The notes below the pieces were generated by a model. That model made no database searches, was not told the origin of the DNA, and saw only the letters and a list, made by a program, of their open reading frames with translations. The translations under genes and the position numbers were made by a program. From a virus, in the IMG/VR virus record IMGVR_UViG_3300021520_000006, positions 1 through 43,304 of that record: DNA of 43,304 nucleotides; one strand, 5' to 3'. Positions 525 to 26,469 of this stretch are shown one piece after another (positions within the stretch are counted from its first letter, which is position 1; each line of letters begins with the position of its first letter).

Positions 525-564
525 TGTTACTTGTTTTTTTTTGGTTCTCATGTAGGGTTGGGGG

Positions 565-7880: not shown

Positions 7881-7894
7881 AAGGTGGTTCTACA

Positions 7895-8302
7895 ATGGAA
7901 GATGTTTTGTATTTGCTGGCGCAAGCACAAGAGAAACGAGCGGAACGCGAGGACAGGCGGCTCCAGGAGAAGGCAGCCAGTGAACTGGAAATGCTGCGTT
8001 TGGAGGACCGCCTAGAGGACGAGCTAGGGCCGCGTGGCGTTCAATTCGAAATCGTCGACTGTCGCGACGTGGGGGGAGGGTTCGTTGCAGTGAAGCTGGG
8101 GCCGTCAATCGTTCACACTAGATTCGCCAATTCAAAGCAAACATCGTCCGATTTGGATTCATACGTGACACCGTGTCTGGTACACCCAACAGTCGAAGCT
8201 TACCGTGCGCTCGTGTTCGAGCGGCCTGCGCTCGTTGGTCGCTGTGCGTTGGCGTTAGCGTATCTGTACGGAGTGCAGAGGGAAGGTGATCAAAAAAAAT
8301 AG
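7895..8302 (+). CDS. Tail assembly chaperone, short form (G-like)
   Basis: 135 aa from ATG 7895 with AAGGTGG just upstream. Residues 1-45 form a charged helix (LAQAQEKRAEREDRRLQEK), followed by a mixed fold (RGVQFEIVDCRDVGGGFVAVKLG). It lies between tube and tape measure, the usual place for chaperones that coat the tape measure during tail assembly. The reading frame ends in CAA AAA AAA TAG, a slippery site, so a longer form is also expected. Confidence 0.72.
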   Translation: MEDVLYLLAQAQEKRAEREDRRLQEKAASELEMLRLEDRLEDELGPRGVQFEIVDCRDVGGGFVAVKLGPSIVHTRFANSKQTSSDLDSYVTPCLVHPTVEAYRALVFERPALVGRCALALAYLYGVQREGDQKK

Positions 8303-8460
8303 ATGATGGCTTTGCACGCTGCGCGAGGAATCCGGCATTTGCTGCGGAGTGTCTAGTCGAGTTGTTCGGGGGCGACCGGGAAAACATACAGGCGCACGTA
8401 GGCGCTTTACTGCTAGTAGAGGCACTAATGATTTTCAGGACGTCACATGGCATCGGGTGA
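7895..8460 (+). CDS. Tail assembly chaperone, long form by -1 frameshift (GT-like)
   Basis: A -1 slip on the A run at 8292-8299 bypasses the TAG at 8300 and opens a further 52 codons (starting DDGFARCARNPAFAAECL) that end at TGA 8458-8460, inside the start of the tape measure gene. The extension has no start codon or ribosome binding site of its own, and fills an otherwise unexplained gap of about 145 bases. Frameshifted chaperone pairs are well known in lambda (G/GT) and Mu (gp41). The expected product is about 188 aa. Confidence 0.75.
8292..8299 (+). promoter_or_regulatory. Slippery A8 sequence for programmed -1 frameshift
   Basis: Eight A follow GATC; in the zero frame this reads CAA AAA AAA TAG. 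The heptamer A AAA AAA at 8293-8299 is a classic -1 slippery site, with the zero-frame stop directly after it and an open -1 frame of 52 codons beyond. Confidence 0.75.
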
Positions 8461-10468
8461 GTCTGAATTCAAACTAACGCTGGTCGAAGGGATTTCCGGT
8501 CCGTCGGCTAAGGCGGGAAGTGCGCTCGATGAGCTACGTGCGAAAATCGGTGCGACACAAGCAGCGCTGAAAAACATTGGGGCAGATATGGATCGCCTAA
8601 AAGGAGCTACTGAAAAGGTCAAGACGTCAAAAGGTGATTTGTCGAGGAAGATGATAGGCGAGCAAAAAGAGACGGTCAAGACTACAGGGGCAACGCATAA
8701 GAGCGGCCTGGCGTTAAGGGATCTGTCCAAGGGGGCGAAAGAGGGTGAGAAACCGATCAAGGGGATCGGTGATCTCTTCTCTAGGGTAGGGAAAATCTTC
8801 GAAGGTGGCGGCGCTAAAGCTGCCGCAGGTGGCGAGGGTATGGGCGCGATGGCGGGAAAAATGGGCAAAGCAGGGGGCGCAGCGGGTGTGGTCGCTGCTG
8901 CTGTGGCCGCTGCTGCTGTCGCGTTCGTTGCCATCACTGTGAAAGTTGCGGAAGCAACCGTGGCGGTCGCGAAGTGGGTTCTAATCTCGGCTGATGCGTC
9001 GCGTACTGCGGGCCTTTGGCGCGAGTCCGTACTTGGGGGCGCAGCGAATAGTGCAGCGTTGACTTTTCAAATCGACCAGTTGGCTCGCGTGCTCCCCACG
9101 TCACGCGCGAAGCTTCAAGAAATGGCCCTTTCTCTTTGGAAGACTGGGATCGATGGGCAAATCCTGGTCGACTCGATGGCAGCGCTCGGCCATGTTTCGG
9201 AAGCGATGGGCGAAGACGTTGCGGGGTCTTTCCGTCGCATTCTTGAGGCAAACAAGCTGCTTGGTCGTTTCCAATTGCCAGATCCTAGGGAAATGAGGGG
9301 GTGGGGCGTGTCCTTCGACGACATTGCAAAGCAACTGTCTACGAAGCTTGGAATTGGCCTTGGGGACGCTAGGGCTCGCCTTCGTGCCGGTGGGGTCAAG
9401 TTAGCGGATGGGGCCGCAGCGCTGCGGGCGGCAGTGGAAAAGAATTTCGGGGCTATCAATCTTCGAAAGGCGTTGACGATTGACGCGATAACTGGGAGAT
9501 TTCACGAAAACATCGCACGGCTATTTTCTGGGATCAATATTGAGCCGGTGCTTGTTGGTTTGTCAAATCTAGCTAATTTACTGTCAAAAAACAGTGTGCT
9601 CGGGTATGGTTTGGAAAAGGTATTTAAGCTAATCGGTGATTCAGTAGTTCAGGGGCTGATCAGGCATGGGCCATTACTTGAGGATGTCCTATATGGAGTT
9701 GGAACTGTGCTGCTTCAGCTCGTCGCAATTGCCTACCGGCTCAAGATCGCGCTTGTCGCGGCGTTCGATAACCCAGAGCTAAAGGCGAAAATTGCTGAAA
9801 TGCGGTTCATTACCGCTCCGTTCGTCGCTGCGTCAGGGTTCGCTTTGGACGCTGCGTCAGGGCAAGGTGCGACACCGCAGGGGGTAATGCCTGCAAAGGT
9901 ACCTGTTGGGCCAACGGGCAGCGGTGGGACGGCGGGTGTGCCTGGTGCGGTTCCGGTGCCTGAGGTACGGGCTGCGGCTGTCGACGCGGGGAAACAGATC
10001 CCTGCGGGCATGGCTATTGGCGTGAAGTCAAACGAGGGTTTTGCTAGCGTCGCGATCGGTTCGATGGGCGCGCTGATGATCGCGGACCTCAAAAAGGCGC
10101 TGGGAATCAAGTCGCCATCGCGGGTTTTTGCTGGGCTCGGGGCAAACACCGCGCTCGGTTTTGCGGCGGGTATCGAAACTGGCACTCCTGCGGCTGTAGC
10201 GGCTGTAGGCGCGCTCGGTGACGCAGTGGCGGCTCGTGGGTCAGGGGACGGAGCCGACGCAGGTGGTGGGGGCGTACGTGCTCGGGTTGGGGGGGTTCGG
10301 GATAGGAACGGCGGCTATGGGGCCGCGCCCGCAGCTCGCGACGTCACGGTGAACGTGACGATCAACGCAGCGGGAGGGATCGACCCTTCCAAAAATCCCA
10401 GTTTCTTGGCAGAATTGACGCGAGCGATTGAAAACGCGTTGCTTGCGCAAGGGCTGGGTGCTTCGTAA
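8447..10468 (+). CDS. Tail tape measure protein
   Basis: 673 aa, the longest gene of the tail module. It has a helical charged N-terminus, an Ala/Gly-rich stretch leading into a hydrophobic segment at about residues 140-175 (VVAAAVAAAAVAFVAITVKV), further helices, and a Gly/Pro-rich C-terminus with GMAIGVKSNEGF and LKKALGIKSPSRVFAGLG, which is common near the ends of tape measures. Length implies a tail of roughly 100 nm by the usual 0.15 nm per residue. ATG 8447 lies inside the frameshifted end of the chaperone gene. Confidence 0.85.
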   Translation: MASGESEFKLTLVEGISGPSAKAGSALDELRAKIGATQAALKNIGADMDRLKGATEKVKTSKGDLSRKMIGEQKETVKTTGATHKSGLALRDLSKGAKEGEKPIKGIGDLFSRVGKIFEGGGAKAAAGGEGMGAMAGKMGKAGGAAGVVAAAVAAAAVAFVAITVKVAEATVAVAKWVLISADASRTAGLWRESVLGGAANSAALTFQIDQLARVLPTSRAKLQEMALSLWKTGIDGQILVDSMAALGHVSEAMGEDVAGSFRRILEANKLLGRFQLPDPREMRGWGVSFDDIAKQLSTKLGIGLGDARARLRAGGVKLADGAAALRAAVEKNFGAINLRKALTIDAITGRFHENIARLFSGINIEPVLVGLSNLANLLSKNSVLGYGLEKVFKLIGDSVVQGLIRHGPLLEDVLYGVGTVLLQLVAIAYRLKIALVAAFDNPELKAKIAEMRFITAPFVAASGFALDAASGQGATPQGVMPAKVPVGPTGSGGTAGVPGAVPVPEVRAAAVDAGKQIPAGMAIGVKSNEGFASVAIGSMGALMIADLKKALGIKSPSRVFAGLGANTALGFAAGIETGTPAAVAAVGALGDAVAARGSGDGADAGGGGVRARVGGVRDRNGGYGAAPAARDVTVNVTINAAGGIDPSKNPSFLAELTRAIENALLAQGLGAS

Positions 10469-11034
10469 TGATGCCTTGTGACCTTCTAGATTCTGCGATC
10501 CCGCGCGCTGATTGTATCCTCCTCGGCCCTATGCGTTCTCCTGGCCGAGCGACAGTTAAGGGCGCTGGAGATCCTAGGAAATGGGATGTTCGCGCTGGGG
10601 TCGGATTCGATGGTGGCTCCACTGTTTGCGTGGGAAAGGAACCAGCGAAATTCGAGGTAGAGTTTGCGCTTTGGTTGGGCTCGCAGTTTTTAGAATGGCA
10701 GGTTTTCGCAAGGTTACTTCTCGATGCACGCGTCATGCGGGTTGCGTTGGGGATCTCTCACCCTGCGCTGTCGTTTCCTCCCTTGTCGATTTCCGCGGTA
10801 ATTGTGGAAGACGTGTCGCAGTTTTCCCAGTCTGACGATGGTCTTTGGACGTGCACGGTAAAATTCATCCAGTGGAAACGGGCGCTCCCGATCTTTGCTC
10901 GTCCCATGGCTGCGGTACCGGGGGGGAGCACGCCTGTTCCTACGGCGCAAACGGAGGCCCAAAAGGGATTTTTGAAGGCTCTTGAGAATGTGGGGCGCTT
11001 AGCTGCGCAGTCCGATGCGCAGGGGGCATTGTGA
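10468..11034 (+). CDS. Baseplate / tail hub-associated protein
   Basis: 188 aa. It begins one base before the tape measure stop ends. The pattern LGPMRSPGRATVKGAGDPRKWDVRAG..DG, KFEVEFALWL, HPALSFPPLSISAVIVEDVSQFSQSDDGLWTCTVKFIQW is a recurrent beta-rich protein placed just after tape measures in Mu-like and similar myoviruses, where Mu has gene N. It probably forms part of the upper baseplate. No enzymatic motif is visible. Confidence 0.6.
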   Translation: MMPCDLLDSAIPRADCILLGPMRSPGRATVKGAGDPRKWDVRAGVGFDGGSTVCVGKEPAKFEVEFALWLGSQFLEWQVFARLLLDARVMRVALGISHPALSFPPLSISAVIVEDVSQFSQSDDGLWTCTVKFIQWKRALPIFARPMAAVPGGSTPVPTAQTEAQKGFLKALENVGRLAAQSDAQGAL

Positions 11035-12227
11035 TCACGCTCAATGGGTTCGTTGTTCGTAGTTGTTGGCTGATGCAGCCTACGACCGGAGTATGGACGG
11101 CTGAGATTGAAGCTGAATGCGACATCATTCCAAGCGTCCCGATCGGACCTGCAGTGTTGTTCGTCGAAGCAACTCCGTTGCGCTGTTGGGTAGTCGAGAC
11201 GTTCAGCGGGCTATGGGTCGATCGTCTGCGGGTCCGGGTGATCGGTGGCATTTCCGGCGGGTGGCTGCGCGATGTTTTGCCGCTTCATTTTCACAATGAC
11301 GTGGGGGTTTTGTCGTCTGCAGTAGTGGCGGCGACAGGATCCGAAATTGGCGAGGCAATCTCGGATCCTCTGCCTGTACGGTACGGGGTCGATTATGTGC
11401 GCGCGGGGGGGCCTGCGGCGCGTGTGTTCGGCGATCGTCCGTGGCACGTCGATCCGATTTCTGGTGTGACCACCGTGGGTGCCAGAATACCAGCGCTGGT
11501 GGATTGGTTGACGTTCGACCTTTTGGATTGGGATCCTGTTACGCGATGCGCAACGTTCGCGGGCGATGGCGTGCTTTCCCCTGGTAGCCTGATTGCGGAT
11601 CCACGGCTGGGCGCATCGGTTTGGAAGTTGGGGGACGTATGTCAAAGTTGGGGAGAAGGGCCCGCGCGCTCGCAAAGTTGGCTTGTACCCGTGGCGTCTG
11701 AGACACCCGGCGGGATGTCGTTATTATTCCGCAGGTTGATTCGTGAAAATGTTGGGGTGTTGTTCCTGCAAAGTTACCGTTATCGAGTGGTTTTGCAGGG
11801 GGTGGACGGTCGGTTGGTTCTTCAACCGGTAGATCTCGCGGGGCCTATGCCTCCTACCCTGCCAGTTTCGATTTGGTACGGGATCCCTGGGTTTGCTGCC
11901 AAATTGTTGCCTGGCGTGATTGTGGAATTGCACTTCCAAGGTGGAAATCCCGCGCTGCCCGTGGTGTCTGGGTTCGATGGCTCGGGTCTTCCTCTCGATG
12001 TTTCTCTGACCGCGACGAAAATCGCGGTGGGCAGTGGGGGCTGTGTGTCGGCGAGTATCGAGGCGCTGCGCGTGTCGTTGGGGGATGCGATGGCACTAAA
12101 GCCCATAGTGCTAGCTCCTGAGCTGATAACGTGGGCCGCGGCGGTTGTTGAGGTGCTAAAAACATCGGGGATCGTTGTTCCTCCTTTGCCTCCGTCTGTT
12201 GCGTCTCTAAAGGTTTTTGGGGTGTAG
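11031..12227 (+). CDS. Baseplate hub/spike protein
   Basis: 398 aa, overlapping the previous gene by 4 bases (GTGA; GTG start). The first 290 residues are mixed beta; the last 110 resemble the oligosaccharide-binding and beta-helix end of baseplate spike proteins: GVIVELHFQGGNPALPVVSGFDGSG and then the short regular strands of SLTATKIAVGSGGCVSASI. The place between the gene N-like protein and the gp25-like wedge fits the Mu P/gp45 slot; here the two functions may be combined in one chain, which is an inference. Confidence 0.62.
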   Translation: MITLNGFVVRSCWLMQPTTGVWTAEIEAECDIIPSVPIGPAVLFVEATPLRCWVVETFSGLWVDRLRVRVIGGISGGWLRDVLPLHFHNDVGVLSSAVVAATGSEIGEAISDPLPVRYGVDYVRAGGPAARVFGDRPWHVDPISGVTTVGARIPALVDWLTFDLLDWDPVTRCATFAGDGVLSPGSLIADPRLGASVWKLGDVCQSWGEGPARSQSWLVPVASETPGGMSLLFRRLIRENVGVLFLQSYRYRVVLQGVDGRLVLQPVDLAGPMPPTLPVSIWYGIPGFAAKLLPGVIVELHFQGGNPALPVVSGFDGSGLPLDVSLTATKIAVGSGGCVSASIEALRVSLGDAMALKPIVLAPELITWAAAVVEVLKTSGIVVPPLPPSVASLKVFGV

Positions 12228-12228
12228 A

Positions 12229-12576
12229 ATGGCTGATATCGTTTGCGAATATGACCTGGATCCATATGGTCGCGAATTGAGCAACGCAGATCAAGAGCTG
12301 TGGCAAGACCTCTTGCACCGTCTTATCGAGGACCCAGGATCTAACCTGGACGATGGGGACCGCGGTGTTGGGGTCTTTTCGCTACTGTCGAGCTCTACGT
12401 CGTTGCAACATATCGCGCATGCGATCGAAAGTGATTTCAGGAAAGATGCGCGTGTTCAGGTGGTAAAGGCGACAGTTGGTACAGCAAAAGCTGCTAGGAT
12501 TACTGTCGAGGTGGTTACGATGTCGAATTCGACGTTGAGTTTTGATGTCTCATCTGGGTCTGGGGTGATCCGATGA
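12229..12576 (+). CDS. Baseplate wedge, GPW/gp25-like
   Basis: 115 aa from ATG 12229. The small alpha/beta protein opens with DIVCEYDLDPYGRELSNADQELWQDLLHRLIEDPG and closes with RITVEVVTMSNSTLSFDV. It sits directly before a baseplate J gene, the invariant neighbour of gp25-like wedges. The gp25 lysozyme-like fold is structural, not a peptidoglycan hydrolase, in most such phages. Confidence 0.7.
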   Translation: MADIVCEYDLDPYGRELSNADQELWQDLLHRLIEDPGSNLDDGDRGVGVFSLLSSSTSLQHIAHAIESDFRKDARVQVVKATVGTAKAARITVEVVTMSNSTLSFDVSSGSGVIR

Positions 12577-13715
12577 TCGGGATCTCGGACCTGCTGTCAG
12601 AAGTGACAGCGAAAGAGACTTACGAACGCTATTTGTCGAACTTGGAAAGGCTAGGGGTCCCCGCAAGGTCGTGGCGAATTGGGGGAAGTTTGCGCACGAT
12701 CTTGCAGGTTATAGCAACAAATTATGCTGAGTTATCCGCTGTAGTCGTCGCGTTATCTCGTGCTGGTTTTTTGGAAACCGCAGAAAAAAGCTGGCTGACG
12801 TTGTTGGCGCGCTCTGTATTCGGCGAGCAAAGACAGGGTGCAACTCAAGCCACGGGGCTCTTGCGGCTTACAAATTCCGGTGGTGGTCTGTACAGTTGGC
12901 AACCAGGACAGCTTATTGCGCTGCACTCGATCAACGGGAAAAGCTACCTGAATACGACGCAAGTCGACCTTATGCCTGGGCAGACACGCGACGCACCGAT
13001 CGCGTCGCGCGAATTTGGGTCCGGGTCTAACGCGGGTCCGGGTGAAATTGTGGATTTGGAAACCAAAATGCTCGGCGTTTCGGTGAGTAATCCTGCGGCT
13101 GTTGTTGGCGTCGACGAGGAAACGGATCCTATGCTGCGCGCGCGGTGTCGCGACAAATTGGGGACGCTGTCCAATGGGGGACCACGGCGGGCCTTTTCGT
13201 ATGCAGCCAAAACAGCAAAAAAAAGCGACGGTCGGCCAACGGATGTCAATCGCGTTTTTGTCTCGCGCAGTTCTTCGACGGGCGAAGTGCACGTACTTGT
13301 CGCGTCAAAATCTGGAGCTGTGAGTGCGGAAGATTTAATTGCTGTGCGAGCCAGTGTGGAGGCGCTGGCTCGTCCTGATTGTGTCACCGTGTTTGTCGCG
13401 TCTGCGGCAATTGCCAATATTGGGCGCGATGTCGTCGTCTGGCTCCAAGGGACTCAAATCGATGTAGTTGCTGTCGAGGTCGCGCTGCGAGTTGCTGCCC
13501 AGGCGTGGGTCTCTGCCTATCCGATCGGCGGGTTTACGAAACCACCTGCCACGCAAGGGTGGTGGTTTGCGGCGGGGCTCGCAGGGACGCTCAAGGCAGC
13601 GCATGCGTCGGTTTATGACGTCGACGGTACGGGTGCAGATGTCGCGCTAAACGGAGGCGAGGTTCCGTCTTTAAAACTGGGTGTTACCCTACGGGTCGTT
13701 TCCGAGGTGACGTGA
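12573..13715 (+). CDS. Baseplate J-like wedge protein
   Basis: 380 aa. Typical baseplate J features are seen: SWRIGGSLRTILQVIATNYAE near the start, a middle GLLRLTNSGGGLYSWQPGQLIA, GSGSNAGPGEIVDLETKMLGVSVSNPAAVVGVDEETDPMLRAR and a C-terminal AVSAEDLIAVRASVEALARPDCVTVFVASA..NI. It forms the ring that triggers sheath contraction. Start ATG 12573 overlaps the gp25-like stop. Confidence 0.85.
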   Translation: MIGISDLLSEVTAKETYERYLSNLERLGVPARSWRIGGSLRTILQVIATNYAELSAVVVALSRAGFLETAEKSWLTLLARSVFGEQRQGATQATGLLRLTNSGGGLYSWQPGQLIALHSINGKSYLNTTQVDLMPGQTRDAPIASREFGSGSNAGPGEIVDLETKMLGVSVSNPAAVVGVDEETDPMLRARCRDKLGTLSNGGPRRAFSYAAKTAKKSDGRPTDVNRVFVSRSSSTGEVHVLVASKSGAVSAEDLIAVRASVEALARPDCVTVFVASAAIANIGRDVVVWLQGTQIDVVAVEVALRVAAQAWVSAYPIGGFTKPPATQGWWFAAGLAGTLKAAHASVYDVDGTGADVALNGGEVPSLKLGVTLRVVSEVT

Positions 13716-13716
13716 A

Positions 13717-14508
13717 ATGGGAGACACGGTTTCCACTAGGTTCCGCGACAGTCTGCGGAAATATGTTCCGGTGTGGCTGTCTGACCGCCTAGGTCAGTCT
13801 GTAGGGTTCCGCCTCCTGTGGGCGGTCGTCGCGACGCATGACGTTCTCGCTGACGTCGCACTAGAGGGGCTGCAAGCTGCTTGGCCTGGGATGGGTACTC
13901 CGGATGCTTTGGGTTTGATCGGACGAACCAGGGGCCTCGTCAGGTGGCAGGACGAGCCCGATTCGAGCTATCAGCTCCGCTTGCGTGGTTGGCTGGAATG
14001 TTGGGCCAGGGCTAGAACCCGTGAAATTGCGCAGCAAGTGCACGGGTACCTACGGAGCAAGCCTATGGTGCGTTTGATTTCACGTGCTGGGGTTTGGGTC
14101 TCGGTGGATCGTGATGGCGTTCTGACAGAATGTGAGGCCCCGTGGAATTGGGATAGCATCTCGCATCCAGAGCGATCGGGTTGGTGGTCTGATTTGTGGA
14201 TGGTGGTTTTTACGGATCAATATCCAAAGCGGCCTGGTACGCTGGGATCGTTGCCAGCGCATGATGACGGGCTCGGGTTGGGGCACATGGTGCCGCGCGT
14301 AGAATGCGACATTTTGCGCGCGTGGATCGGCGAGCTAAAGGGCGCACATTCCCTGATTCGAGCGGTGATATGGTGCGACGACCCGACCATGTTTGACCCC
14401 AAGAATCCAGTCAACGTTCCAGATGGCACGTGGGGCGCGTGGGGCTACGGAGATCCTTCAGATTGTACGCGTGATTTGCAACACTGTAGATATTGGGAGA
14501 TCGAATAA
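13717..14508 (+). CDS. Baseplate wedge / tail protein after gpJ (Mu gp48 position)
   Basis: 263 aa. It has the helical N-terminus found in the protein after baseplate J (FRDSLRKYVPVWLSDRLGQSVGFRLLWAV, DEPDSSYQLRLRGWLECWARARTREI) and then a Trp-rich beta part ending in WGAWGYGDPSDC. By position it links the wedge to the fibre network. No precise family is recognised. Confidence 0.6.
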   Translation: MGDTVSTRFRDSLRKYVPVWLSDRLGQSVGFRLLWAVVATHDVLADVALEGLQAAWPGMGTPDALGLIGRTRGLVRWQDEPDSSYQLRLRGWLECWARARTREIAQQVHGYLRSKPMVRLISRAGVWVSVDRDGVLTECEAPWNWDSISHPERSGWWSDLWMVVFTDQYPKRPGTLGSLPAHDDGLGLGHMVPRVECDILRAWIGELKGAHSLIRAVIWCDDPTMFDPKNPVNVPDGTWGAWGYGDPSDCTRDLQHCRYWEIE

Positions 14509-15483
14509 ATGGGCCGTCCTATTCCGGGCGATGACAAATGGCGCGATCAATTCGTCATTCCTGACGACGGGGATCCGCCCACAGCGGCAGCTTGTAACAT
14601 TGGGCTTTCTGCACTGGCAGATCGCACGCGTTATTTGTGGGTCCGGCGAAACGAGTTGCTCGAGTTACTGAAATCTGAGGAAGGGTCTAAGCTGATTGGC
14701 TCCGCAATAATCCCGAGACGTTACGGGGACATTGCAGCGGGAACGGTTTACGAACAGCTAGGGTTTGTCTATGAGAAGTTGTTCGAATACCAGCTGCTTT
14801 TGAACCATGAAGGGACAGACCACGTAGGGGGACGTGCGCTCGTTTATAAGGACCACACGTTGCATGCTGGTCTTGTAGCGGAGCAATTGCTTGAACTGCT
14901 CGAATATGCGGACTTCATCCAAGAACTCGTGTCTGCACTCGAAAAGAAACAGGGCGGCGACATAACAGCGCTCACGGGTCGCGTGTCAGCTCTTGAGACC
15001 TGGCGCGCAACTATCGGCGACAGGGACCGTCCCAACGGCGTAGCTCCGGTAGATGCTAACGCTTCGCTTCCGTTTCGAAATAACTCCATTTGCGAGGTAG
15101 GTTTCGTAAGCGAAGAAGGCGATCATCTCCGGACAAATGCGGCGCATGCTGTGCTGGTCAGTTTGATGCTTATCGATGGGATGAATGTCAAGCCTTTACG
15201 AATAACGGATGGGCAACATGTTCCATTGCTGGTTACTCGCTACGCGATCAACATGGCCACGCCAGGTGGCATGAACAGAGATCAAATGGTGTTGTTGTAC
15301 ACATACAGCGGGGCGATATATGCGCAATATGAGATAATAATGGCCCATGATGTTGATTCTGAATTCACAGCGGTTCCTGTTGGTCGGCCGTTGAGTGCTT
15401 GGCGCATCGTCTCGTCCAAGAATTGCTCGATACGTGCTCTCCCGGGGGGAGCAATCGGGGAAGGGGTCGGTTATGGCTGTTGA
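14509..15483 (+). CDS. Tail fibre or baseplate fibre-like protein with coiled coil
   Basis: 324 aa, ATG directly after the previous stop. The N-terminal third begins MGRPIPGDDKWRDQFVIPDDG and reads as a baseplate-attached segment. A helix at about 120-170 (YADFIQELVSALEKK, LTGRVSALETWRATIG) looks like a trimeric coiled coil, and the C-terminal 150 residues are beta-rich. It is the first gene of the fibre cluster. The next gene starts inside its last 11 bases. Confidence 0.5.
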   Translation: MGRPIPGDDKWRDQFVIPDDGDPPTAAACNIGLSALADRTRYLWVRRNELLELLKSEEGSKLIGSAIIPRRYGDIAAGTVYEQLGFVYEKLFEYQLLLNHEGTDHVGGRALVYKDHTLHAGLVAEQLLELLEYADFIQELVSALEKKQGGDITALTGRVSALETWRATIGDRDRPNGVAPVDANASLPFRNNSICEVGFVSEEGDHLRTNAAHAVLVSLMLIDGMNVKPLRITDGQHVPLLVTRYAINMATPGGMNRDQMVLLYTYSGAIYAQYEIIMAHDVDSEFTAVPVGRPLSAWRIVSSKNCSIRALPGGAIGEGVGYGC

Positions 15484-16111
15484 ATCTCTCAATTGGTTGG
15501 ACCGATATTTCACGCCTCCGCTGTGGGCTGGCGAGGATAGTAAGCCGTTGCCAATGCGCCCTATGATCCGCATCACCGGGAAAGGCGCTAAGCTGACGGA
15601 TGATCCTATCGAGGGGCGCACCGAATTGGTGATCGACGGCGGTGGTGCGGGGTTACCATGGGGCATTTTCGCAGTAGGCAGGGGATCGACGGGATCAGAT
15701 GTGCTGGCGGGTAGGAAACGAGTCCTTGGGTTTTGGCCCAGCCTGACGTTGCTTTCGCCTGTTGTTCCTGCGGCTTATGGGTTGATTGTCACTGCAGCGT
15801 TTCGACAGGTTGTTACTGCCGACGCGGCAGTGCGGACAGCGCAATGGGGTGGTTTTGTCGAGGCATTTTGTGCGAGCGCAGGGGGTGTGGCATGCTCTGA
15901 AACGATTGTTGTTAAGGATCTCGAATTGAATGTTCAGGGGGTTCTGTTTTCATCCTCGGAAGTTGAGGGGCAGGAGCTTTTAGGGGCTCGTTGTTGGGCT
16001 GAGTACGGGTATTTGGCTGTCGTCAATAGTTGGGTTGTTCCTTTTGCTGAACTGCCAAAAAAAGACGAATTCGCAGCAGCGCTGCGACGCATGGGCAAGG
16101 GGGTGGTGTGA
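15473..16111 (+). CDS. Tail fibre-associated protein, unrecognised
   Basis: 212 aa from ATG 15473, preceded by AAGGGG with 6-base spacing. It begins AVESLNWLDRYFTPPLWAG and has a middle of hydrophobic strands (TLLSPVVPAAYGLIVTAAF) and GVACSETIVVKDLELNVQGV. No known domain is recognised. Its place between fibre genes suggests a role in fibre structure or attachment. Confidence 0.5.
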   Translation: MAVESLNWLDRYFTPPLWAGEDSKPLPMRPMIRITGKGAKLTDDPIEGRTELVIDGGGAGLPWGIFAVGRGSTGSDVLAGRKRVLGFWPSLTLLSPVVPAAYGLIVTAAFRQVVTADAAVRTAQWGGFVEAFCASAGGVACSETIVVKDLELNVQGVLFSSSEVEGQELLGARCWAEYGYLAVVNSWVVPFAELPKKDEFAAALRRMGKGVV

Positions 16112-17259
16112 TGTCGGGTGCTTTTTATTTGCGTGGGTGGGATCGAGATTTGACACAATGGGAAATGTGGGTCAGCGACGACGTGGATTCTCCCCCCCCC
16201 AGTGGCAAAGAAAACTTGCAAAACATCCAGTGGATGCCCTTTGAAAAGGGCGGGGGGGCTGCGGGACCTTTTTGGGTCAATACAGCATGGCCATTGAGTG
16301 GCGGTGAGCTGCTGGACCACGACATCCTGCTCTCAATCGAGCCTGGCGAAGAAGGTTACTCTCTCCAAACATATGAAGGGCAAGTGGTGTGGAGGCCTTC
16401 TGGGGGAGGTACGACGCACACGTTGGGGACGTCGTTCCCTATATCGGGTGGCGGACTGTTCGACAAAGACTTGACTCTGTCGATCTCGCCAGCGTCCACA
16501 ACGGGTCACGTCTTGACGACGATTGCACCTGGCACTGTTGGTTGGGCGCCTGGGCAGGGTGGGGGCACGGCGCACACTCTCGGGACCACCTATCCCATAG
16601 TAGGGGGGGGCCTGTTCGACAAAGACTTGACTCTGTCAATCTCGCCGGGCGTAGAAGGGCAAGTCTTGACAGGTCATGACAGCGCGCCGCCTGATTGGGC
16701 ACCGGTGGTAGTTTGGGAAATCAAGGGGAAAGACGGCGGGTTTTCTCGAAAAGACGCCTACGTGCGATCTGGCGCGGTGGTGAAGACCGAGGGATACTTC
16801 GCCGAGGGGTACAATTTACGGGCGGTCGCGATTCGGGTATGGGGGGACGCTAGGGGGACACCTTCATTTGTGGATGCGCCGGAACAATTTTATGTGAAAC
16901 CCGGGATGTCAATGCACGTCACGGCGCACGCTGTCGCGCATTGCCGGGACGAAGGCTACGCGTCGTCCCCCCATTCTGGTTCATGCACCGTGCACGCTCT
17001 GATCACATGGGGAGCAACAGCTCCCGAACCTCCGAGTGTCTTTTTTGCGGTAATTGGAACAGACATAAATATGGCGGGCGCGCTCCTTAACCCTGGTATT
17101 CGTGTAGGTAGGATCAACAGCACGATGTACCAGGTAGAATTCCACGCGAGTCGCGCAGCACCGCCTCCTAAAGATGGCGAGGGGGCCCCCCCCACGGCAA
17201 CCACGGGGCTGTTGGTTGCGGTAACTTTCGACGCAACGGTCTCGTTAGGAACTGCATAG
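16111..17259 (+). CDS. Fibre protein with GGG-L..D repeats
   Basis: 382 aa from ATG 16111. Three to four repeats of about 38 residues run through residues 50-190, each with a core like HTLGTSFPISGGG followed by LFDKDLTLSIS. Such LxGGG(D)L...LsI motifs are frequent in phage tail fibre shafts. The C-terminal 190 residues are beta-rich (DAPEQFYVKPGMSMHVTAHA) and may be the receptor-contacting head. The two central repeats share nearly identical DNA around 16460 and 16618. Repeats of the same kind occur in the next gene, suggesting common origin. Confidence 0.68.
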   Translation: MSGAFYLRGWDRDLTQWEMWVSDDVDSPPPSGKENLQNIQWMPFEKGGGAAGPFWVNTAWPLSGGELLDHDILLSIEPGEEGYSLQTYEGQVVWRPSGGGTTHTLGTSFPISGGGLFDKDLTLSISPASTTGHVLTTIAPGTVGWAPGQGGGTAHTLGTTYPIVGGGLFDKDLTLSISPGVEGQVLTGHDSAPPDWAPVVVWEIKGKDGGFSRKDAYVRSGAVVKTEGYFAEGYNLRAVAIRVWGDARGTPSFVDAPEQFYVKPGMSMHVTAHAVAHCRDEGYASSPHSGSCTVHALITWGATAPEPPSVFFAVIGTDINMAGALLNPGIRVGRINSTMYQVEFHASRAAPPPKDGEGAPPTATTGLLVAVTFDATVSLGTA

Positions 17260-17307
17260 TCATGGCGCAGGCATCAACGGTCTGGTAGTTGGGTGACAGG
17301 AATTTAG

Positions 17308-19095
17308 ATGTTTTTAACTCGTGCGCGTCCGTCATTTGTAAGGGTAGTCCATCGCGACGATCGGCCGATCGTGGGGTCAGTGGAAAAGGGGGGGCTCGCT
17401 GCAATTGTGCAACAGGGGGAAAATCGGGGCAAATATTGCCGAGCGGGCGTTTCGGGGGGAAGTTTCGTTGTGGGTCGCTTCTCAGAAACAACGGACCGTG
17501 ATCATGCTGAAATCGAATATTTCCCAGACAGGACCATCATTTTACTTCAAAACAGCGACTCCTGGCCTGTCACCAATGAGGATCGAGAGGGCCTCTGTTG
17601 GGCGGTCGACGACCAAACGGTGTCGAGTGCGGCTAGCGTGGGCGCTGTTGCCGGGGTCGTTTACGAGGTCGTCGACGGGGGGGTTTGGGTTGAATTAGCT
17701 GCGGGTAATCGAGCTTCGGGTGGCGACGTCCCAGCGACGCGAAAAATTGGGACGAAGGTCCCGTTGACCGGCGGCGGGGACCTCTCGGTTGACCGGGCGC
17801 TGGCAATCGCCCCGGGCCAAGATCGCCAACTGCTGGGGTCTAATGCGGGCGCAGTCGCGTGGGTCGACCCACCGGCACCTGGCGTTCCCGTGGAGCGCGT
17901 CGTCGCGACTGCGGGCCCGTTGACCGGCGGCGGGGACCTCTCGGTTGACCGGGCGCTGGCAATCGCGCCTGGTGGCGCGGGGCAGTTTTTGGGCACGGCG
18001 GAAGGTGCACGCGTGGCGTGGCAATCGCTCCCTGCGGCGGTTCCGGTGGAGCGCAAGGTCGAGGGTGTGGGTGTTCTCATCGGCGGAGGCGATCTGAGTG
18101 TAGACCGCAAGATCACGGTCGGCGCGGGGCCGACTGGATACGTGCTCGGGACCGATGGGATCGGTGCGAAGTGGGTCCCCCCTCCGATGGGGCTACCTCA
18201 CACTTTGAGGACCAAGGCGCCGTTGGCTGGTGGGGGGCTGTTCGACCAGGACCTGGAGATCAGTCTGCCCGCTGGCACGAAGGGGCAGGTTCTGGCGACC
18301 GACGCTGCCGGTCAGGTGGGATGGGTGTCGCCTGCGCCTCCAGTTGCGATCAATCCAGTGTTGCCGCTCTGCGGCGGGGGGACCCTCGATAAGGACGTGG
18401 GGCTGTATATATCGCCAGGTGGGAAAGCGGGGCTGGTCCTGTCGACGACAGGCCGCGGTGAGACGGTGGGATGGGCGAATCCTGCGGTCCCCGCAGAACG
18501 AAAAATTGACACCTACGGAGTGCTCGATGGGGGGGGCTCACTCGCTGATGACCGGCGCCTATACATCATGTCTGGGAAGCCCGGGCAGGTGCTGGGGACC
18601 AACGACAGCCACCTGGTGGAATGGCGCGATGGGCTGGCGCTTCGGACCATTGAGAACCCGGAGTGGACTCTGGAGGTGAAGGCAACGAGCGTTCACACCT
18701 ACACGCCACGAGTGAGCTTCCCCTGGCGTCAAAAGTGGCTAGACAGAGTCCGCGCAGAAGCGGGGCTCTATGTGTCGTCTCCGTTCGAAATGCTCCCTGG
18801 TCAGTGCGCTACGGTGACGTGGGAGTACCTCATCATCGGGACCTACAATGTGGACCCCAAATCTGTATCGGGGAAATACCGCGCGTCGATCGAATTCGGA
18901 ACGATATGCAAGGCGCAAGAAATTAAGGTATTGGATACGTACGGGTGGGTCCCGCCGGGTCCGGCGATTAAGTTGGTAGAGGTTTATAAGGACCGCGCGG
19001 TCATGGCGATCGCCATGGACCTAAAAGAACTCGGCATGGCGTGCGATGTGTTGTGTGAGGTCACCATAATGCGGTGGAAAGAAGGGCTCGCGTGA
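17308..19095 (+). CDS. Fibre with capsid-decoration-like N-terminus (possible head fibre)
   Basis: 595 aa, ATG 17308. Residues 1-130 are homologous to the protein at 2905 in the capsid module (RPSFVRVVHRDDRPIVG, NRGKYCRAG, WAVDDQTVS, GVVYEV..GGVWVEL). Residues about 140-440 hold about seven repeats of roughly 40 residues with PLTGGGDLSVDRALAIAPG cores and VPVERxV linkers; the DNA of the first two includes an exact 50-bp repeat. The last 155 residues are beta-rich and carry TLEVKATSVHTYTPRVSFPW. An N-terminal domain shared with a head protein suggests attachment to the capsid instead of, or as well as, the baseplate. It lies among tail fibre genes, so a tail fibre is the alternative. Confidence 0.65.
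   Translation: MFLTRARPSFVRVVHRDDRPIVGSVEKGGLAAIVQQGENRGKYCRAGVSGGSFVVGRFSETTDRDHAEIEYFPDRTIILLQNSDSWPVTNEDREGLCWAVDDQTVSSAASVGAVAGVVYEVVDGGVWVELAAGNRASGGDVPATRKIGTKVPLTGGGDLSVDRALAIAPGQDRQLLGSNAGAVAWVDPPAPGVPVERVVATAGPLTGGGDLSVDRALAIAPGGAGQFLGTAEGARVAWQSLPAAVPVERKVEGVGVLIGGGDLSVDRKITVGAGPTGYVLGTDGIGAKWVPPPMGLPHTLRTKAPLAGGGLFDQDLEISLPAGTKGQVLATDAAGQVGWVSPAPPVAINPVLPLCGGGTLDKDVGLYISPGGKAGLVLSTTGRGETVGWANPAVPAERKIDTYGVLDGGGSLADDRRLYIMSGKPGQVLGTNDSHLVEWRDGLALRTIENPEWTLEVKATSVHTYTPRVSFPWRQKWLDRVRAEAGLYVSSPFEMLPGQCATVTWEYLIIGTYNVDPKSVSGKYRASIEFGTICKAQEIKVLDTYGWVPPGPAIKLVEVYKDRAVMAIAMDLKELGMACDVLCEVTIMRWKEGLA
17761..17966. repeat. 50-bp exact direct repeat in the fibre gene
   Basis: Bases 17761-17810 and 17917-17966 are identical over 50 positions and encode the PLTGGGDLSVDRALAIA core of the first two repeats. 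Identity at the DNA level in a gene whose other repeats have diverged suggests a recent duplication, and makes the repeat number open to change by recombination. Confidence 0.85.
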
Positions 19096-19742
19096 CGATA
19101 ATCTGGATCGGGTCTGAGATCGAGTGTCTGTCTGATCCGCATGCAAAGGCGGAGGACATTGAGTACGATAATTTCACATGGGTCGGGGGAGAGACGCCTC
19201 GAGCGAGGCTGGTTCGGTGCTGCTTCGAAGCGTTGGCGAAAGGTGCGATGGGGTGGAGGGAACGACCTGCGGACTACGCCAGGTTCATCAATTGCGGGCT
19301 TCATCCCGCCGGATACGTCGGCTCCGTTGGGATGAGCAGCATCGCCAGTTGGAAAACGTCGTGCGCGTTGTTCGTACGAGCCGCGCTGCACTGGTCGGGA
19401 AGAACAGCGTCAGTAGCGCGGTGCGGGAGCGGGATCTTCGCCTACCTGGGGGGGGTCTCGTATGCGAGCCGCGCATGGTGCCCGTGGCCGCTGCACATAA
19501 CTCCGCTCCCAGGGGACGTGTTTTACGTTGCATCCACGCCGTCATCGAATGACGGGCACGTGGGGGTGTTCCTAGAACAGCCGAACGGGATGATTCCGGA
19601 CCGCTGGGTGACGGCGGAGGGCGGAGGCGGGGACGGGACGCGGTGCGTGCTGTCGAGCAGGCAGATTGGAAAGAAATTCGATCCGTACGGACGCACGCTG
19701 CAAGGCTGGTTCGATGCGGGGCGGATGCTGCCGCAGTCGTGA
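19092..19742 (+). CDS. Endolysin candidate, CHAP / NlpC-P60-like Cys peptidase
   Basis: 216 aa from GTG 19092, overlapping the previous stop (GTGA). A Cys at the start of a helix (WKTSCALFVRAALHW), a proline-glycine turn PLPGDVFYVAS, then His in NDGHVGVFLEQP and a polar third position in TAEGGGGDGT make the Cys-His order of CHAP/NlpC-P60 peptidases, which cut peptidoglycan peptides. There is no signal peptide, so it would need a holin or similar for export; none is recognised next to it. It lies at the end of the structural genes and before small lipoprotein-like genes, as in a lysis cassette. Confidence 0.65.
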   Translation: MTIIWIGSEIECLSDPHAKAEDIEYDNFTWVGGETPRARLVRCCFEALAKGAMGWRERPADYARFINCGLHPAGYVGSVGMSSIASWKTSCALFVRAALHWSGRTASVARCGSGIFAYLGGVSYASRAWCPWPLHITPLPGDVFYVASTPSSNDGHVGVFLEQPNGMIPDRWVTAEGGGGDGTRCVLSSRQIGKKFDPYGRTLQGWFDAGRMLPQS

Positions 19743-19873
19743 CACGTTTACTACCGCTTCTGGTGTGCGTGCTGTTGGTGTGGCTCGCGAGTTGCTGGCC
19801 CCACATTAGGCTTCGACTCCGACACGAGGACTGCCCTGCGTGTGGGAACTCGGATGGAGGCGTCCATGGTTAG
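19739..19873 (+). CDS. Small lipoprotein, possible spanin component
   Basis: 44 aa, GTG 19739 overlapping the endolysin stop (GTGA). A hydrophobic leader RLLPLLVCVLLVWLASC ends in the lipobox L-A-S-C, after which about 25 polar residues with two more Cys remain. Small lipoproteins straight after endolysins are often outer-membrane spanins (Rz1-like), but no inner-membrane partner is recognised and the mature part is not Pro-rich. This gene is too short to be found by many gene callers. Confidence 0.55.
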   Translation: MTRLLPLLVCVLLVWLASCWPHIRLRLRHEDCPACGNSDGGVHG

Positions 19874-20033
19874 GTCTGTTTTGGTGGTTGGGTGCGCTGC
19901 GGCGGTGTTCCTCCTGTTACGCTGTGGCGGGGCGACGACAGCGGAGCTCACGATCGACACGTCGTGCATCGACGCTGGGCCCGATGTGGATGACCTGTGC
20001 CCGTGGCTGCACGAAGACGCGTCCAGTGAATAG
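19866..20033 (+). CDS. Small secreted or membrane protein
   Basis: 55 aa from ATG 19866, with GGAGG 6 bases upstream. A hydrophobic N-terminus VRSVLVVGCAAAVFLLLRC is followed by an acidic tail with three Cys (SCIDAGPDVDDLCPW). It may be a lipoprotein, but neither Cys in the leader sits in a good lipobox. It overlaps both neighbours by 8 bases, so the four genes from the endolysin to the repeat protein appear to be translated together. Confidence 0.5.
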   Translation: MVRSVLVVGCAAAVFLLLRCGGATTAELTIDTSCIDAGPDVDDLCPWLHEDASSE

Positions 20034-21810
20034 CCGCTGGGCGCTGGCGTGTATCGGTTGTTTTTTGTGGGGGTGTGCTGTCGAGCGCGTTGAGCTAGTC
20101 GAGCGAGTCGAGCGAGTCGAGCAGCGCAGCGGGGGGGGGCCTGAGCTTTTCGAATGGGCCCAGGGGATCGGACAGGTCGCATCGTCTACCCGTGCGCTCT
20201 CAGTTGGCGTCGCGTCCAGTAGCTCGACGATCGGAATCCAAGCGACCGCCTACGGCGGCGGGATCGCAGGAGCCCCGGTGACAATCGCGGTTATTGGCGG
20301 GGGGGCGATCGTCACTCCTACGACAAGCACTACAGACGCAACGGGGGTTGCATGGGGTTTTCGTGTCGAGCCCGTTAGCGGCGGCGATTACGTGGTCCGC
20401 GCGTCGGTCGGTGCGCTGACCTATGATTTCGATTTCTCGAACGATTGCGATGGGTGCAGCATCTCGGTTGCTCCGATATCTTTCTCGCGCGTAGCAGAGG
20501 TCAATTCGCCGTTCGCTGATGATGTAGACGCCCTTGTGTCCTGTTCGTCCACGCCAACCGCGGGGTGTTGGGTTCGATGCAACGCTCCTCCCACGGGGGC
20601 AAGCGGGGTGCTGTCGGGGACCGGCGCAACGGGAGTTGCCAGGACAACGGACGCAACGGGAGTCGCATCTTTTTCGGTTTTAGCGAATGGGATCGCGGGG
20701 CCTTGGGATGTGCGAGTTTCTATGTATTCTGGGCCGTCGTTTGCGGATGTCGCGATGCAAAACACTGCGGGGGCCGATGGCGGAGACGCTGGAGATGATA
20801 GCGGAGATGCTGGGGATAGTGACGGCGGAGACGATAGCGGCAGCGGAGACGCTGGTGTTCCTAGTGGAGACGCTGGGAGCGGTGATAGTGGAGACGCTAG
20901 CGGAGTGGATGACGCTAGCCTTGACGCTGATTTGGATGGTGGCGTCGTTGCGGATGCCGTGGCAGATGCGTCTGCTGATGCAATTGAAGCGTCGCTTGTC
21001 ACGGATGCGTCAGAAGACGTGACGGTGCCTGATGCTGCACCAATTGTCCCGCCGCCGGGATATTGTCTTAGTGCTAGCGATTGTAGCGCTGGGCAGGAAT
21101 GCGTATTCCAAGGCGCGGGTTACGCATGGTGGGCATGTGTCGACCCGCCCCCCCCGCCACCGTGGGTGTGTTATTCGGATCAGGACTGCGCGCCATTGGT
21201 CTGCCGTGCAGATGGGGCATGCGTTGAAGCGCCGCCTGCTCCTGTTGTCGATGCGGGAACGATAGACGCGACGGTTGCCATCGATGCAACCATCGATGCA
21301 ACCATCGACGCAACCATCGATGCAACCGTCGATGCAACCATCGATGCAACCGTCGATGCAACCATCGATGCAACCATCGACGCGACCATCGATGCGGCCG
21401 TCGATGCAACCATCGACGCGACCATCGATGCGGCCGTCGATGCAACCATCGATGCAACCATCGATGCAACCGTCGATGCAACCATCGATGGAACCATCGA
21501 CGCGACCATCGATGCGGCCGTCGATGCAACCATCGATGCAACCATCGACGCGACCATCGATGCGACCGTCGAAGCGGGAATCGACGCTGCCATCGAAGCG
21601 GGGGTCGAAGCGGGAATCGAAGCCGGGGTCGAAGCGGGCATCGACGCGACCGTCGCTGCTGATGCCTCGCTGGGCGAGGACGCGTCAGTACCTGTCGTCG
21701 TGTCAGGAGACAGCGGGTGCGCTGTCGGCGCTTCCAGACAGGGACAGGGACACGTTACGTTATGGGTAGCGGCTCTCGCGGCAGCCGTACTACGACGACG
21801 CCGACCCTAG
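20026..21810 (+). CDS. Giant Asp-repeat surface protein with MYXO-CTERM-like tail
   Basis: 594 aa from GTG 20026; this start gives a lipoprotein-like leader NSRWALACIGCFLWGC. An Ig-like region (residues about 55-245: GAPVTIAVIGGGAIVTPTTS, GVARTTDATGVASFSVLANG) is followed by a Gly/Asp/Ser-rich linker, a Cys-rich pair of units (YCLSASDCSAGQECV, CYSDQDCAPLVC), and about 25 tetrapeptides of [IV]-D-A-[TA]. The C-terminus has SGDSGCAVGAS, a hydrophobic segment HVTLWVAALAAAVL and RRRR, the layout of the MYXO-CTERM sorting signal of myxobacteria. It could be a host-derived surface protein used in lysogens or virions, or, with lipid at one end and a membrane helix at the other, a spanin. Function unknown. 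Confidence 0.75.
   Translation: MNSRWALACIGCFLWGCAVERVELVERVERVEQRSGGGPELFEWAQGIGQVASSTRALSVGVASSSSTIGIQATAYGGGIAGAPVTIAVIGGGAIVTPTTSTTDATGVAWGFRVEPVSGGDYVVRASVGALTYDFDFSNDCDGCSISVAPISFSRVAEVNSPFADDVDALVSCSSTPTAGCWVRCNAPPTGASGVLSGTGATGVARTTDATGVASFSVLANGIAGPWDVRVSMYSGPSFADVAMQNTAGADGGDAGDDSGDAGDSDGGDDSGSGDAGVPSGDAGSGDSGDASGVDDASLDADLDGGVVADAVADASADAIEASLVTDASEDVTVPDAAPIVPPPGYCLSASDCSAGQECVFQGAGYAWWACVDPPPPPPWVCYSDQDCAPLVCRADGACVEAPPAPVVDAGTIDATVAIDATIDATIDATIDATVDATIDATVDATIDATIDATIDAAVDATIDATIDAAVDATIDATIDATVDATIDGTIDATIDAAVDATIDATIDATIDATVEAGIDAAIEAGVEAGIEAGVEAGIDATVAADASLGEDASVPVVVSGDSGCAVGASRQGQGHVTLWVAALAAAVLRRRRP
21264..21600. repeat. 12-bp tandem repeat array (Ile/Val-Asp-Ala-Thr)
   Basis: About 25 near-copies of a 12-bp unit like ATCGATGCAACC, each coding for [IV]DA[TA]. 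Variants ATCGACGCGACC and GTCGATGCAACC alternate without a fixed order, and the array decays into GAAGCGGGxxTC units at its end (EAG repeats). The unit is a multiple of three, so copy-number change keeps the frame. Many units contain the palindrome ATCGAT. Confidence 0.9.
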
Positions 21811-21818
21811 CATTGCGT

Positions 21819-21870
21819 AAAAAAAACGACGCCTCGCGATCTCCCGGTATTGGGCGACGCGAGGCGTCGT
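21819..21870 (-). terminator. Rho-independent terminator at the late/leftward convergence
   Basis: A perfect 13-bp stem (ACGACGCCTCGCG at 21826-21838 with its complement at 21858-21870) has a 19-base loop. Eight A precede it on the + strand, so a leftward transcript reads hairpin then U8. It ends the leftward operon. It could also slow rightward transcripts from the late genes, although there is no T run on that side. Confidence 0.85.
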
Positions 21871-23643: not shown

Positions 23644-23696
23644 TCAGGTTCCAGTGGCCGCAAGGCTGTAGGGGTTCAATTCCCCTCCTTCGCACC
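23644..23696 (+). other. attP: 3' half of a tRNA-Leu(CAG) gene
   Basis: On the + strand the sequence reads as an anticodon loop TTCAGGT, TCCAG stem half, long variable arm (GGCC GCAA GGCT), T arm AGGGG TTCAATT CCCCT, acceptor half CCTTCGC, discriminator A and CC. The T loop obeys TTCRANY and the variable arm marks a class II tRNA, with CAG as the anticodon. No matching 5' half is present, so it is not a complete tRNA gene. It overlaps the integrase 3' end, the usual place of attP. Integration would rebuild the host tRNA with phage sequence. Confidence 0.82.
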
Positions 23697-24788
23697 CTCC
23701 GGTAGACCCGGTAGACCCAAGGGAGACCCAACGCCCCCCAGGCGCCCCACGGCATCCTCCGCGGCCCCTTTCGTTGGGTGAGCATAGATCGCCGTCGTGT
23801 TCACGTCGCGATGCCCCAGCATGAATGCCACTCCGCCAAGACTCGCACCGGCGTCCAATGAATGCGTCGCGCACGAGTGCCGAAAATCGTACGCCGCCAA
23901 TCCCTCAGCATCGAGCCCCAATGCTCCCGCCTCTTTGGCCGCTTTTTCGAGCGCGGCTCGATAATCCCGCGGCGCGAACACGAGCCCCTCCTTCTCTTTT
24001 GACTCGCGCCACAGCCATTCGAACCATTCAAGTGCCCGCTTGCTCAGCGGCAAAACTCGACCAAAACGCATCTTGTCGGTCTCGTCCCGAATGACGAGCT
24101 CCCCGCGTTTCAAATCGAGGTCTGGCCACTCGAGCCGGTCGAGTGTCGACGGTCTCAAGCCGGTCTCGTACGAGATCGTGAACCGTGCCTTCGCGGGCAG
24201 CTTCCCCCTGGGCGTCCTTTCTGGGAGCGCCTCGAGCACGGCTTCGATCGTCTCGGGGGAGAAATCCGGAGCCTTCGCCCGCTGCGGACCTACGCGCACC
24301 CCGATCGCTGTTTTTGGGAGCTTGAATCTGTCCGGTATCCCCCCCTTGGCCAAGTAGCCCTTTTCAACCGCGAACCTGAAAATCCCGTACAACCCGCTCA
24401 GTTCGTGTTGCAACGCGCTCCTGGTGACCTTCCGGATCCTGTCCCGTGAGTAGTCCGCAACCGCTGCGTTTGTTGCCGCTTCCGTCAACGTCTTCCACCG
24501 TGGGCAAAAATGTTTCCTGGCGTACAGCTCGTACGCATCGATGGTCGTGTCCGCGAGGATCCCAGTGATCGACGCGAGATACCCTGCTGCAACGACGTCG
24601 AACGCTACTTCGCTGGTGGCGACTTCTCTTTTTCCTGCAACGTGGTCCGCGTAGATCCTGGCTGCTTTTCTCTTAGCCTCGCCAGAATCTGTTTCTCCTG
24701 TGGTGATAGAGACCCGCACGCCTTCGTGGCGGAAACGGACCTGCCAGGTCTGCTTTCCCTTGTCCCGCTTGATCGACCATCCAGCCAT
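23676..24788 (-). CDS. int: Tyrosine site-specific integrase
   Basis: 370 aa from ATG 24788 (GAGG 7 bases upstream). It catalyses recombination between attP and attB. It has an N-terminal arm-binding part (WSIKRDKGKQTWQVRF), a SAM-like core-binding domain (YLASITGILADTTIDAYELY), and the catalytic domain with Arg in ETGLRPSTLDRL, H-x-x-R in YDFRHSCATH, His in MLGHRDVNTT and nucleophile Tyr in AIYAHPTKG. The last codons are encoded by the tRNA-derived core of attP. The excisionase candidate overlaps its start by about 185 bases. GC and codon use match its neighbours. Confidence 0.93.
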   Translation of the reverse strand: MAGWSIKRDKGKQTWQVRFRHEGVRVSITTGETDSGEAKRKAARIYADHVAGKREVATSEVAFDVVAAGYLASITGILADTTIDAYELYARKHFCPRWKTLTEAATNAAVADYSRDRIRKVTRSALQHELSGLYGIFRFAVEKGYLAKGGIPDRFKLPKTAIGVRVGPQRAKAPDFSPETIEAVLEALPERTPRGKLPAKARFTISYETGLRPSTLDRLEWPDLDLKRGELVIRDETDKMRFGRVLPLSKRALEWFEWLWRESKEKEGLVFAPRDYRAALEKAAKEAGALGLDAEGLAAYDFRHSCATHSLDAGASLGGVAFMLGHRDVNTTAIYAHPTKGAAEDAVGRLGGVGSPLGLPGLPEGAKEGN

Positions 24789-24934
24789 GCTTTCACCTCT
24801 TCTACGCGAAAAAATGTCTTGCTCCCGATGCACACGGGCGTCAGATGGCGCCGAACATGTCGGTTGAACGTGTCCTTCGATACCGCGCAGAACGCCGCGG
24901 CTTGCAACGTCGAGAACAGGTAGGGCTCCACCAT
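24605..24934 (-). CDS. Excisionase candidate overlapping int
   Basis: 109 aa from ATG 24934 (TAATG junction with the upstream gene). Residues 5-57 form a HTH of the MerR/Xis kind: FSTLQAAAFCAVSKDTFNRHV, then LTPVCIGSKTFFRVEEVKAWLDG. After this domain the frame runs on for 54 codons inside the integrase gene in another frame, giving a 184-base overlap. The tail is polar and Lys/Arg-rich (QEKQILARLREKQPG). An Xis role is inferred from the fold and from being next to int. Confidence 0.6.
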   Translation of the reverse strand: MVEPYLFSTLQAAAFCAVSKDTFNRHVRRHLTPVCIGSKTFFRVEEVKAWLDGRSSGTRESRPGRSVSATKACGSLSPQEKQILARLREKQPGSTRTTLQEKEKSPPAK

Positions 24935-26284: not shown

Positions 26285-26469
26285 TGCCTGCTTTGCCTCG
26301 CCCGGCCGCGCCCGGCCTTGCCTGGCCCTGCCCTGCCTGCCTCGCCCGGCCGCGCCCGGCCTTGCCCGGCCCTGCCCGGCCCTGCCCTGCCTGCCTCGCC
26401 CAGCCATGCCCGGCCGCGCCCGGCCCCGCCATGCCGCGCCTGCTTTGCCTTGCCTCGCCTGCTTTGCCG
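26285..26469. repeat. Pentanucleotide NNGCC array in a non-coding gap
   Basis: About 185 bases where GCC (GGC on the leftward transcript) returns every five bases with variable intervening dinucleotides (CG, TT, CT, TG, CA). It occupies the gap between the SSB-like gene and the next gene of the leftward operon, and no gene is credible here; apparent frames are long only because stop codons are absent. The leader for the downstream gene would be a 290-base GC-rich RNA. Confidence 0.85.

Follow-up and report, generated by a model that had tools for sequence, protein, structure and literature searches.

A gene at the end of the lysis region of a phage genome encodes a protein built like a surface protein of myxobacteria, which raises the question of how such a protein would reach the cell surface and what the phage would gain from it. 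The gene lies at positions 20026 to 21810 of the window, the whole stretch of viral DNA that was analysed (43,304 nucleotides, IMG/VR record IMGVR_UViG_3300021520_000006). The best explanation makes it an accessory gene carried by a temperate Myxococcota phage and its product a chimera of host-type parts, as follows.

20026..21810, + strand: host-type surface protein gene; GTG start, 594 amino acids, open frame; Ig region related to Myxococcota proteins
20026..20076, + strand: signal sequence MNSRWALACIGCFLWGC; lipobox-like LWGC, or a signal peptidase I site after GCA
20218..20445 (approximate), + strand: Ig-like domain 1, Big_1/invasin type; Pfam Big_1, E 1.1e-4; Foldseek match of the model to intimin/invasin
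20452..20775 (approximate), + strand: Ig-like domain 2; 40% identity over 97 amino acids to a Myxococcota Ig-repeat protein (locus L183)
20776..21051, + strand: Asp/Gly/Ser-rich acidic linker, from sequence
21061..21225, + strand: two Cys-rich units, CxxxxDC...C, from sequence and TIGR04201
21262..21651, + strand: [IV]DA[TA] repeats grading into VEAG/IEAG repeats, from sequence
21709..21807, + strand: MYXO-CTERM-like tail SGCAVGASRQGQGHVTLWVAALAAAVLRRRRP; GC, about 13 hydrophobic residues, RRRRP
23676..24833, - strand: tyrosine integrase; Pfam Phage_integrase, E 5.5e-24

The original prediction described this frame as a giant surface protein with an Ig-like region, an Asp/Gly-rich region, a Cys-rich pair and a tail of Cys, hydrophobic segment and RRRR. 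All of these parts are present, although "giant" overstates 594 amino acids. The leader (residues 1 to 17) is hydrophobic by eye and contains LWGC, and signals of type I and type II both fit: the lipobox-like motif would suit the predicted lipoprotein-like character, and cleavage by signal peptidase I after GCA is also possible. AWAC, a lipobox shown to work, likewise has Trp at position -2 (PMC6139136).

The Ig-like pair spans residues of about 65 to 250. Domain 1 alone scored 22.7 bits against Pfam Big_1, under the gathering cut-off of 34.9, and domain 2 alone gave no Pfam match. A two-domain AlphaFold2 model was all-beta at moderate confidence (mean pLDDT, 71), and its top PDB matches in Foldseek were the tandem Ig domains of intimin and invasin (E 1.7e-7). 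No ORF in the window, in 22 phage records or in one host prophage has an Asp window denser than that of the acidic linker. The Cys-rich units reached 13.7 bits against TIGR04201 (Myxo_Cys_RPT; cut-off, 25), and 13 Cys residues in all lie between leader and tail. About 25 [IV]DA[TA] repeats had been predicted; we counted 26, including 22 of the form [IV]DAT, whereas shuffled sequences averaged 0.6 and never exceeded 5. The underlying DNA is a 12-base tandem array (21278 to 21572, 24.6 copies). Matches of the protein to SdrC, FliH and a tail lysozyme were rejected as low-complexity artefacts of the DAT repeats. No fitting family was found in Pfam, PHROG or PADLOC, and no known exclusion protein proved to be related in sequence.

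The genome around this gene is that of a phage. Bases 1 to 138 recur exactly at 43167 to 43304, and this terminal direct repeat indicates that the genome is complete, at about 43.2 kb, and either closes into a circle or is terminally redundant; the TerL gene is split across the record ends. The record encodes a Mu-type portal, a protease, a major head protein, a contractile tail sheath, a tape measure and baseplate proteins, along with RecT, an exonuclease and the tyrosine integrase, and the structural genes together with the integrase identify a temperate, contractile-tailed myovirus. Another IMG/VR contig matches the window at 99.99% identity across 224 to 17389 but stops short of the surface-protein gene. 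Elsewhere in the window, 44/54-base units rich in GCCCGGCC are arrayed in tandem at 26294 to 26440, and an ORF of 1,032 amino acids at 37569 to 40667 has a C-terminal HTH (carph-isopro/YdaS-like) as its sole recognised part.

Relatives of TerL and of the portal, and related prophages, support the reading, implicit in the original prediction, that this is a Myxococcota phage. Portal relatives in a collection of annotated phages include Myxococcus phage Mx4. TerL relatives, which numbered at least 80 in an alignment search of IMG/VR, were found in 10 of 379 Myxococcota genomes; around several of these, portal, head and tail genes follow in order, in one case within a single 10.33-Mb contig. MYXO-CTERM proteins over the cut-off occur in eight of nine TerL-bearing host genomes, most of which hold many. 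The 379-genome group is taken as Myxococcota, a reading from locus L085 (Deltaproteobacteria) with 17 MYXO-CTERM proteins, and the tag is reported to be specific to this phylum (PMC11980579). A host within Myxococcota is supported by these sequence relationships at the level of phylum and by way of relatives, with the systematic search covering Myxococcota genomes only.

The C-terminal tail had been predicted to be MYXO-CTERM-like. A TIGR03901 search of the window gave no match at an E value of 0.001; scored directly, the tail reached 10.5 bits against this curated model (cut-off, 20), and a genome-wide search at a looser limit gave 9.6 bits. Because the tail fell below the TIGR03901 cut-off, we built a profile from 47 tails of Myxococcota proteins that pass it. 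On this host-tail profile the phage tail scored 25.8 bits. Left-out host tails scored 18.4 to 52.4 bits (leave-one-out, n = 47), and four of them scored lower than the phage tail. Of about 12,450 other ORF ends from related phages, the highest scorer reached 15.1 bits, and none of 40,000 shuffles (20,000 full and 20,000 with the RRRRP end kept) attained the score of the phage tail. The profile cross-reacts with PEP-CTERM tails at up to 17.6 bits.

Individual elements of the tail contribute to this score. The invariant Cys of the signature motif is present as C565, and its replacement by Ser lowered the score from 25.8 to 15.9 bits; the Arg-rich C terminus (RRRRP) is likewise present, and its deletion lowered the score to 16.2. 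Single-Cys host tails over the cut-off also exist (L360, L362, L363 and L371), and that of L371, GCAVGGAPSG...RRRR, resembles the phage form and has GCAVG in common with it. The hydrophobic stretch is short (about 13 residues), and a 19-residue hydropathy window calls no helix. The resemblance to MYXO-CTERM exceeds chance. The refuting outcome named in the original prediction was seen only in part: the curated model gave no match above its cut-off, but matches to myxobacterial proteins were found. A search of IMG/VR with the canonical GCGC...RRRR pattern returned chance matches; among the matches listed, the only tails above 12 bits were PEP-CTERM-like ones on L252. On that viral contig, the ORFs at 1375 to 2046 (+ strand) and 2099 to 2305 (- strand) end in PEP-CTERM-like tails and may represent host flank or another phage-borne sorting tag.

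The repeats and the Cys-rich architecture are those of host surface proteins, as the predicted host-type design would have it. In 18 of the 379 Myxococcota genomes, the Ig region repeatedly, though weakly, matched long proteins with Ig repeats. Searched as a DNA pattern, DAT[IV]DAT[IV]DA occurred in 5 of the 379 and the reversed-pattern control in none; three of these DAT-repeat proteins are lipoprotein-like (L204, L205 and L206). In the protein at L203, DAT/DAA repeats lead directly into GDGGCGCRSG...RRRRR, a layout as in the phage protein, and several other host tails are preceded by IDAG or DAG repeats. The DAT-repeat DNA pattern had a single match in IMG/VR, an unrelated low-complexity ORF. 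A search with the whole protein gave no homologue among 40 related phage records (42 records gave only the protein itself), and the N-terminal half had none in IMG/VR (pattern search) or in the phage collection. A gpI-based scan for closer relatives likewise yielded no record with a counterpart. Since the 40 related records hold no orthologue, there is no conservation to show selection.

Several related phages carry other host-type lipoproteins. Lipoproteins with long Gly/Ala linkers (G009 C1:5458-6177, G023 C1:20941-21627 and G024 C1:15838-16578; loci L019, L045 and L048) have a Cys-containing C-terminal domain in common and are a possible phage envelope protein family; the G023 gene shares its strand with the integrase, and the late genes are on the other. 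Others, with Asp/Ala linkers and ends rich in Cys, were seen in G008 (C1:7242-7790, - strand), in G006 (C1:20479-21444) and in a prophage of G219 (L186 and L187, 23086-23718, - strand). Because host-type lipoproteins recur in several relatives, host-type envelope proteins look like recurrent cargo of this phage group. The closest complete relative, G005, encodes a 796-amino-acid protein with many ANAALAVTLGAATVAS-type tandem repeats (C1:510-2900, - strand, locus L092), which lies near a lysozyme-like ORF and the integrase.

When the protein is made bears on what it could do. Its gene is the last in an overlapping lysis-region block (19074 to 21810) that comprises or adjoins the following features.

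19074..19742, + strand: probable endolysin, CHAP/NlpC-like; weak Pfam CHAP match, E 0.077
19739..19873, + strand: small lipoprotein ORF, 44 amino acids, lipobox LASC, o-spanin candidate; GTGA overlap with the endolysin stop
19866..20033, + strand: small membrane protein ORF, 55 amino acids, from sequence; overlaps the surface-protein gene by 8 bases
21826..21870, no strand: strong stem-loop at the end of the late block, with convergent genes on either side; -40 kcal/mol, z -3.35

The surface-protein gene starts inside the final codons of the 55-amino-acid ORF, which in turn overlaps the 44-amino-acid ORF, and its stop is followed by the stem-loop, the convergent genes and the integrase. A run of eight A residues to the left of the stem-loop provides the U-tract for minus-strand transcripts. 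An endolysin homologue in a related phage record (G027, 37%) has a longer C terminus that by eye looks peptidoglycan-binding-like. The two tiny overlapping ORFs between endolysin and surface protein are possible spanin or holin parts; the 55-amino-acid ORF had no family match. A simple scan found no separate promoter for the surface-protein gene, and its start codon, overlapping the upstream stop, suggests cotranscription with the lysis genes. Because the gene is last in this tightly overlapping block, late lytic expression is likelier than the placement on the lysogen surface originally proposed. Judged from gene order, the gene is most likely expressed late and not only in lysogens, and a lysogen promoter would also be compatible.

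The steps of MYXO-CTERM sorting are known for the host protein TraA. In the published route, the protein is exported by Sec, its Cys is proposed to be lipidated, MrtX cleaves it, and type II secretion brings it to the surface (PMC11980579). For the phage protein, Sec would carry out export, the C-terminal helix would hold the protein in the inner membrane, the tail Cys would be lipidated, host myxosortase would cut the helix off, and type II secretion would deliver the protein to the outside of the outer membrane, where the repeats would keep the Ig domains away from the cell surface. Like TraA and other MYXO-CTERM proteins processed by the myxosortase MrtX, the phage protein has a putative signal, predicted extracellular domains, a disordered acidic linker, a Cys motif, a hydrophobic segment and an Arg cluster; it differs in being phage encoded, in scoring below the curated cut-off and in its lipobox-like leader. 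A lipobox there would add a second anchor at the end opposite the tail; by eye, no host MYXO-CTERM protein whose N terminus could be read looked lipoprotein-like. Surface anchoring of the phage protein via the host tag is, in our judgment, probable.

Because the gene closes the lysis block, it would be expressed mainly late in infection, perhaps in lysogens too, and the protein would most plausibly cover or obstruct receptors on infected cells and their debris, in the manner of T5 Llp. T5 Llp is also made during lytic infection, and masking of receptors fits because the phage protein, too, would be made late. Phage-encoded surface proteins and exclusion lipoproteins are already known: T5 Llp and TP-J34 Ltp are likewise encoded by phages and predicted to lie in or on the host envelope, but they are small lipoproteins that lack a C-terminal sorting tag, and no sequence relation to them was found. 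If the protein is anchored, a role in receptor masking or exclusion is about an even prospect, masking being the most likely benefit; superinfection exclusion and use of host sorting for release, both raised in the original prediction, may likewise follow. The reading as a whole, a captured host-type surface protein sorted by a host tail, made mainly late and masking receptors, may be right or wrong with similar probability.

Structurally, the chief rival is an oversized unimolecular spanin, with an N-terminal lipid in the outer membrane, a C-terminal helix in the inner membrane and a beta-rich middle, which would fuse the membranes after endolysin has acted. The gene ends a lysis-like block containing a probable endolysin, and a lipobox-like leader, a C-terminal hydrophobic stretch and a basic end are what such a protein would have; T1 gp11, a unimolecular spanin, has a similar start and end and is also encoded by the last gene of its lysis block. 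Trp at -2 is found in a valid u-spanin lipobox, but all 58 known u-spanins lack Cys in their periplasmic part (PMC6139136), whereas the phage protein has 13 before its tail. Unlike T1 gp11, it also has Ig domains and a sorting-tag motif; its tail matches host sorting tails with the Cys motif included, its Ig and DAT parts are host-like, and an o-spanin is better sought in the upstream ORF that has lipobox LASC. We regard a spanin as improbable. Poorer still is the case for a virion-attached adhesin whose Ig domains would bind host or matrix from the particle, and we consider it highly improbable: Ig-like domains occur on virions and the gene comes after the tail-fibre genes, but an N-terminal signal and a sorting tail point to export rather than cytoplasmic assembly.

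Lysogenic conversion is the likeliest functional rival, in which a moron expressed from the prophage would give the lysogen a new surface property, such as adhesion, kin or prey contact or phage exclusion. SasX, an LPXTG surface protein encoded on a staphylococcal prophage, is such a lysogen trait; it too is phage borne and uses a host C-terminal sorting tag, but it belongs to a Gram-positive sortase system and the two proteins are unrelated. The position between late block and integrase is common for morons, and accessory regions of relatives carry host-type lipoproteins, some opposite the late-gene strand. Set against this are the missing promoter in the simple scan and the start overlapping the upstream stop, and we find this reading possible but somewhat unlikely. 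SitA toxins, carried by myxobacterial mobile elements, are likewise lipoproteins that occur on prophages (PMC12288465), but no toxin domain or immunity gene was recognised in the phage protein or its locus. Passive capture of a host gene or mosaic, currently serving no phage function, would accord with a protein that has no homologue in the 40 related records, the phage collection or IMG/VR (pattern search) and with a 12-base repeat array prone to slippage. All 594 codons are open, however, overlaps couple the gene to its neighbours, and signal and tail are intact, which makes such capture quite improbable.

A captured surface protein bearing a host tag, the reading that we prefer, would to our knowledge be the first phage protein found carrying a myxobacterial surface-sorting tag. 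As originally proposed, no described phage protein with a MYXO-CTERM tag came to light in a limited search of the literature on the tag or in the passages found in PMC12288465. The tagged gene sits in the lysis block and not among classic lysogeny genes. More broadly, Myxococcota phages may put a protein of their own on the cell surface via myxosortase and type II secretion late in infection, there capping the receptors of the dying cell and of its debris and perhaps passing to neighbouring kin by outer-membrane exchange, and related phages may do likewise with other host-type lipoproteins; this generalisation is tentative, and we think it rather unlikely. The surface of the infected cell is probably altered by the phage protein, which would offer a means of testing receptors and superinfection in a phylum whose phages have seldom been studied, and the recurrent lipoprotein cargo of its relatives bears on the movement of myxobacterial surface and kin-recognition genes.
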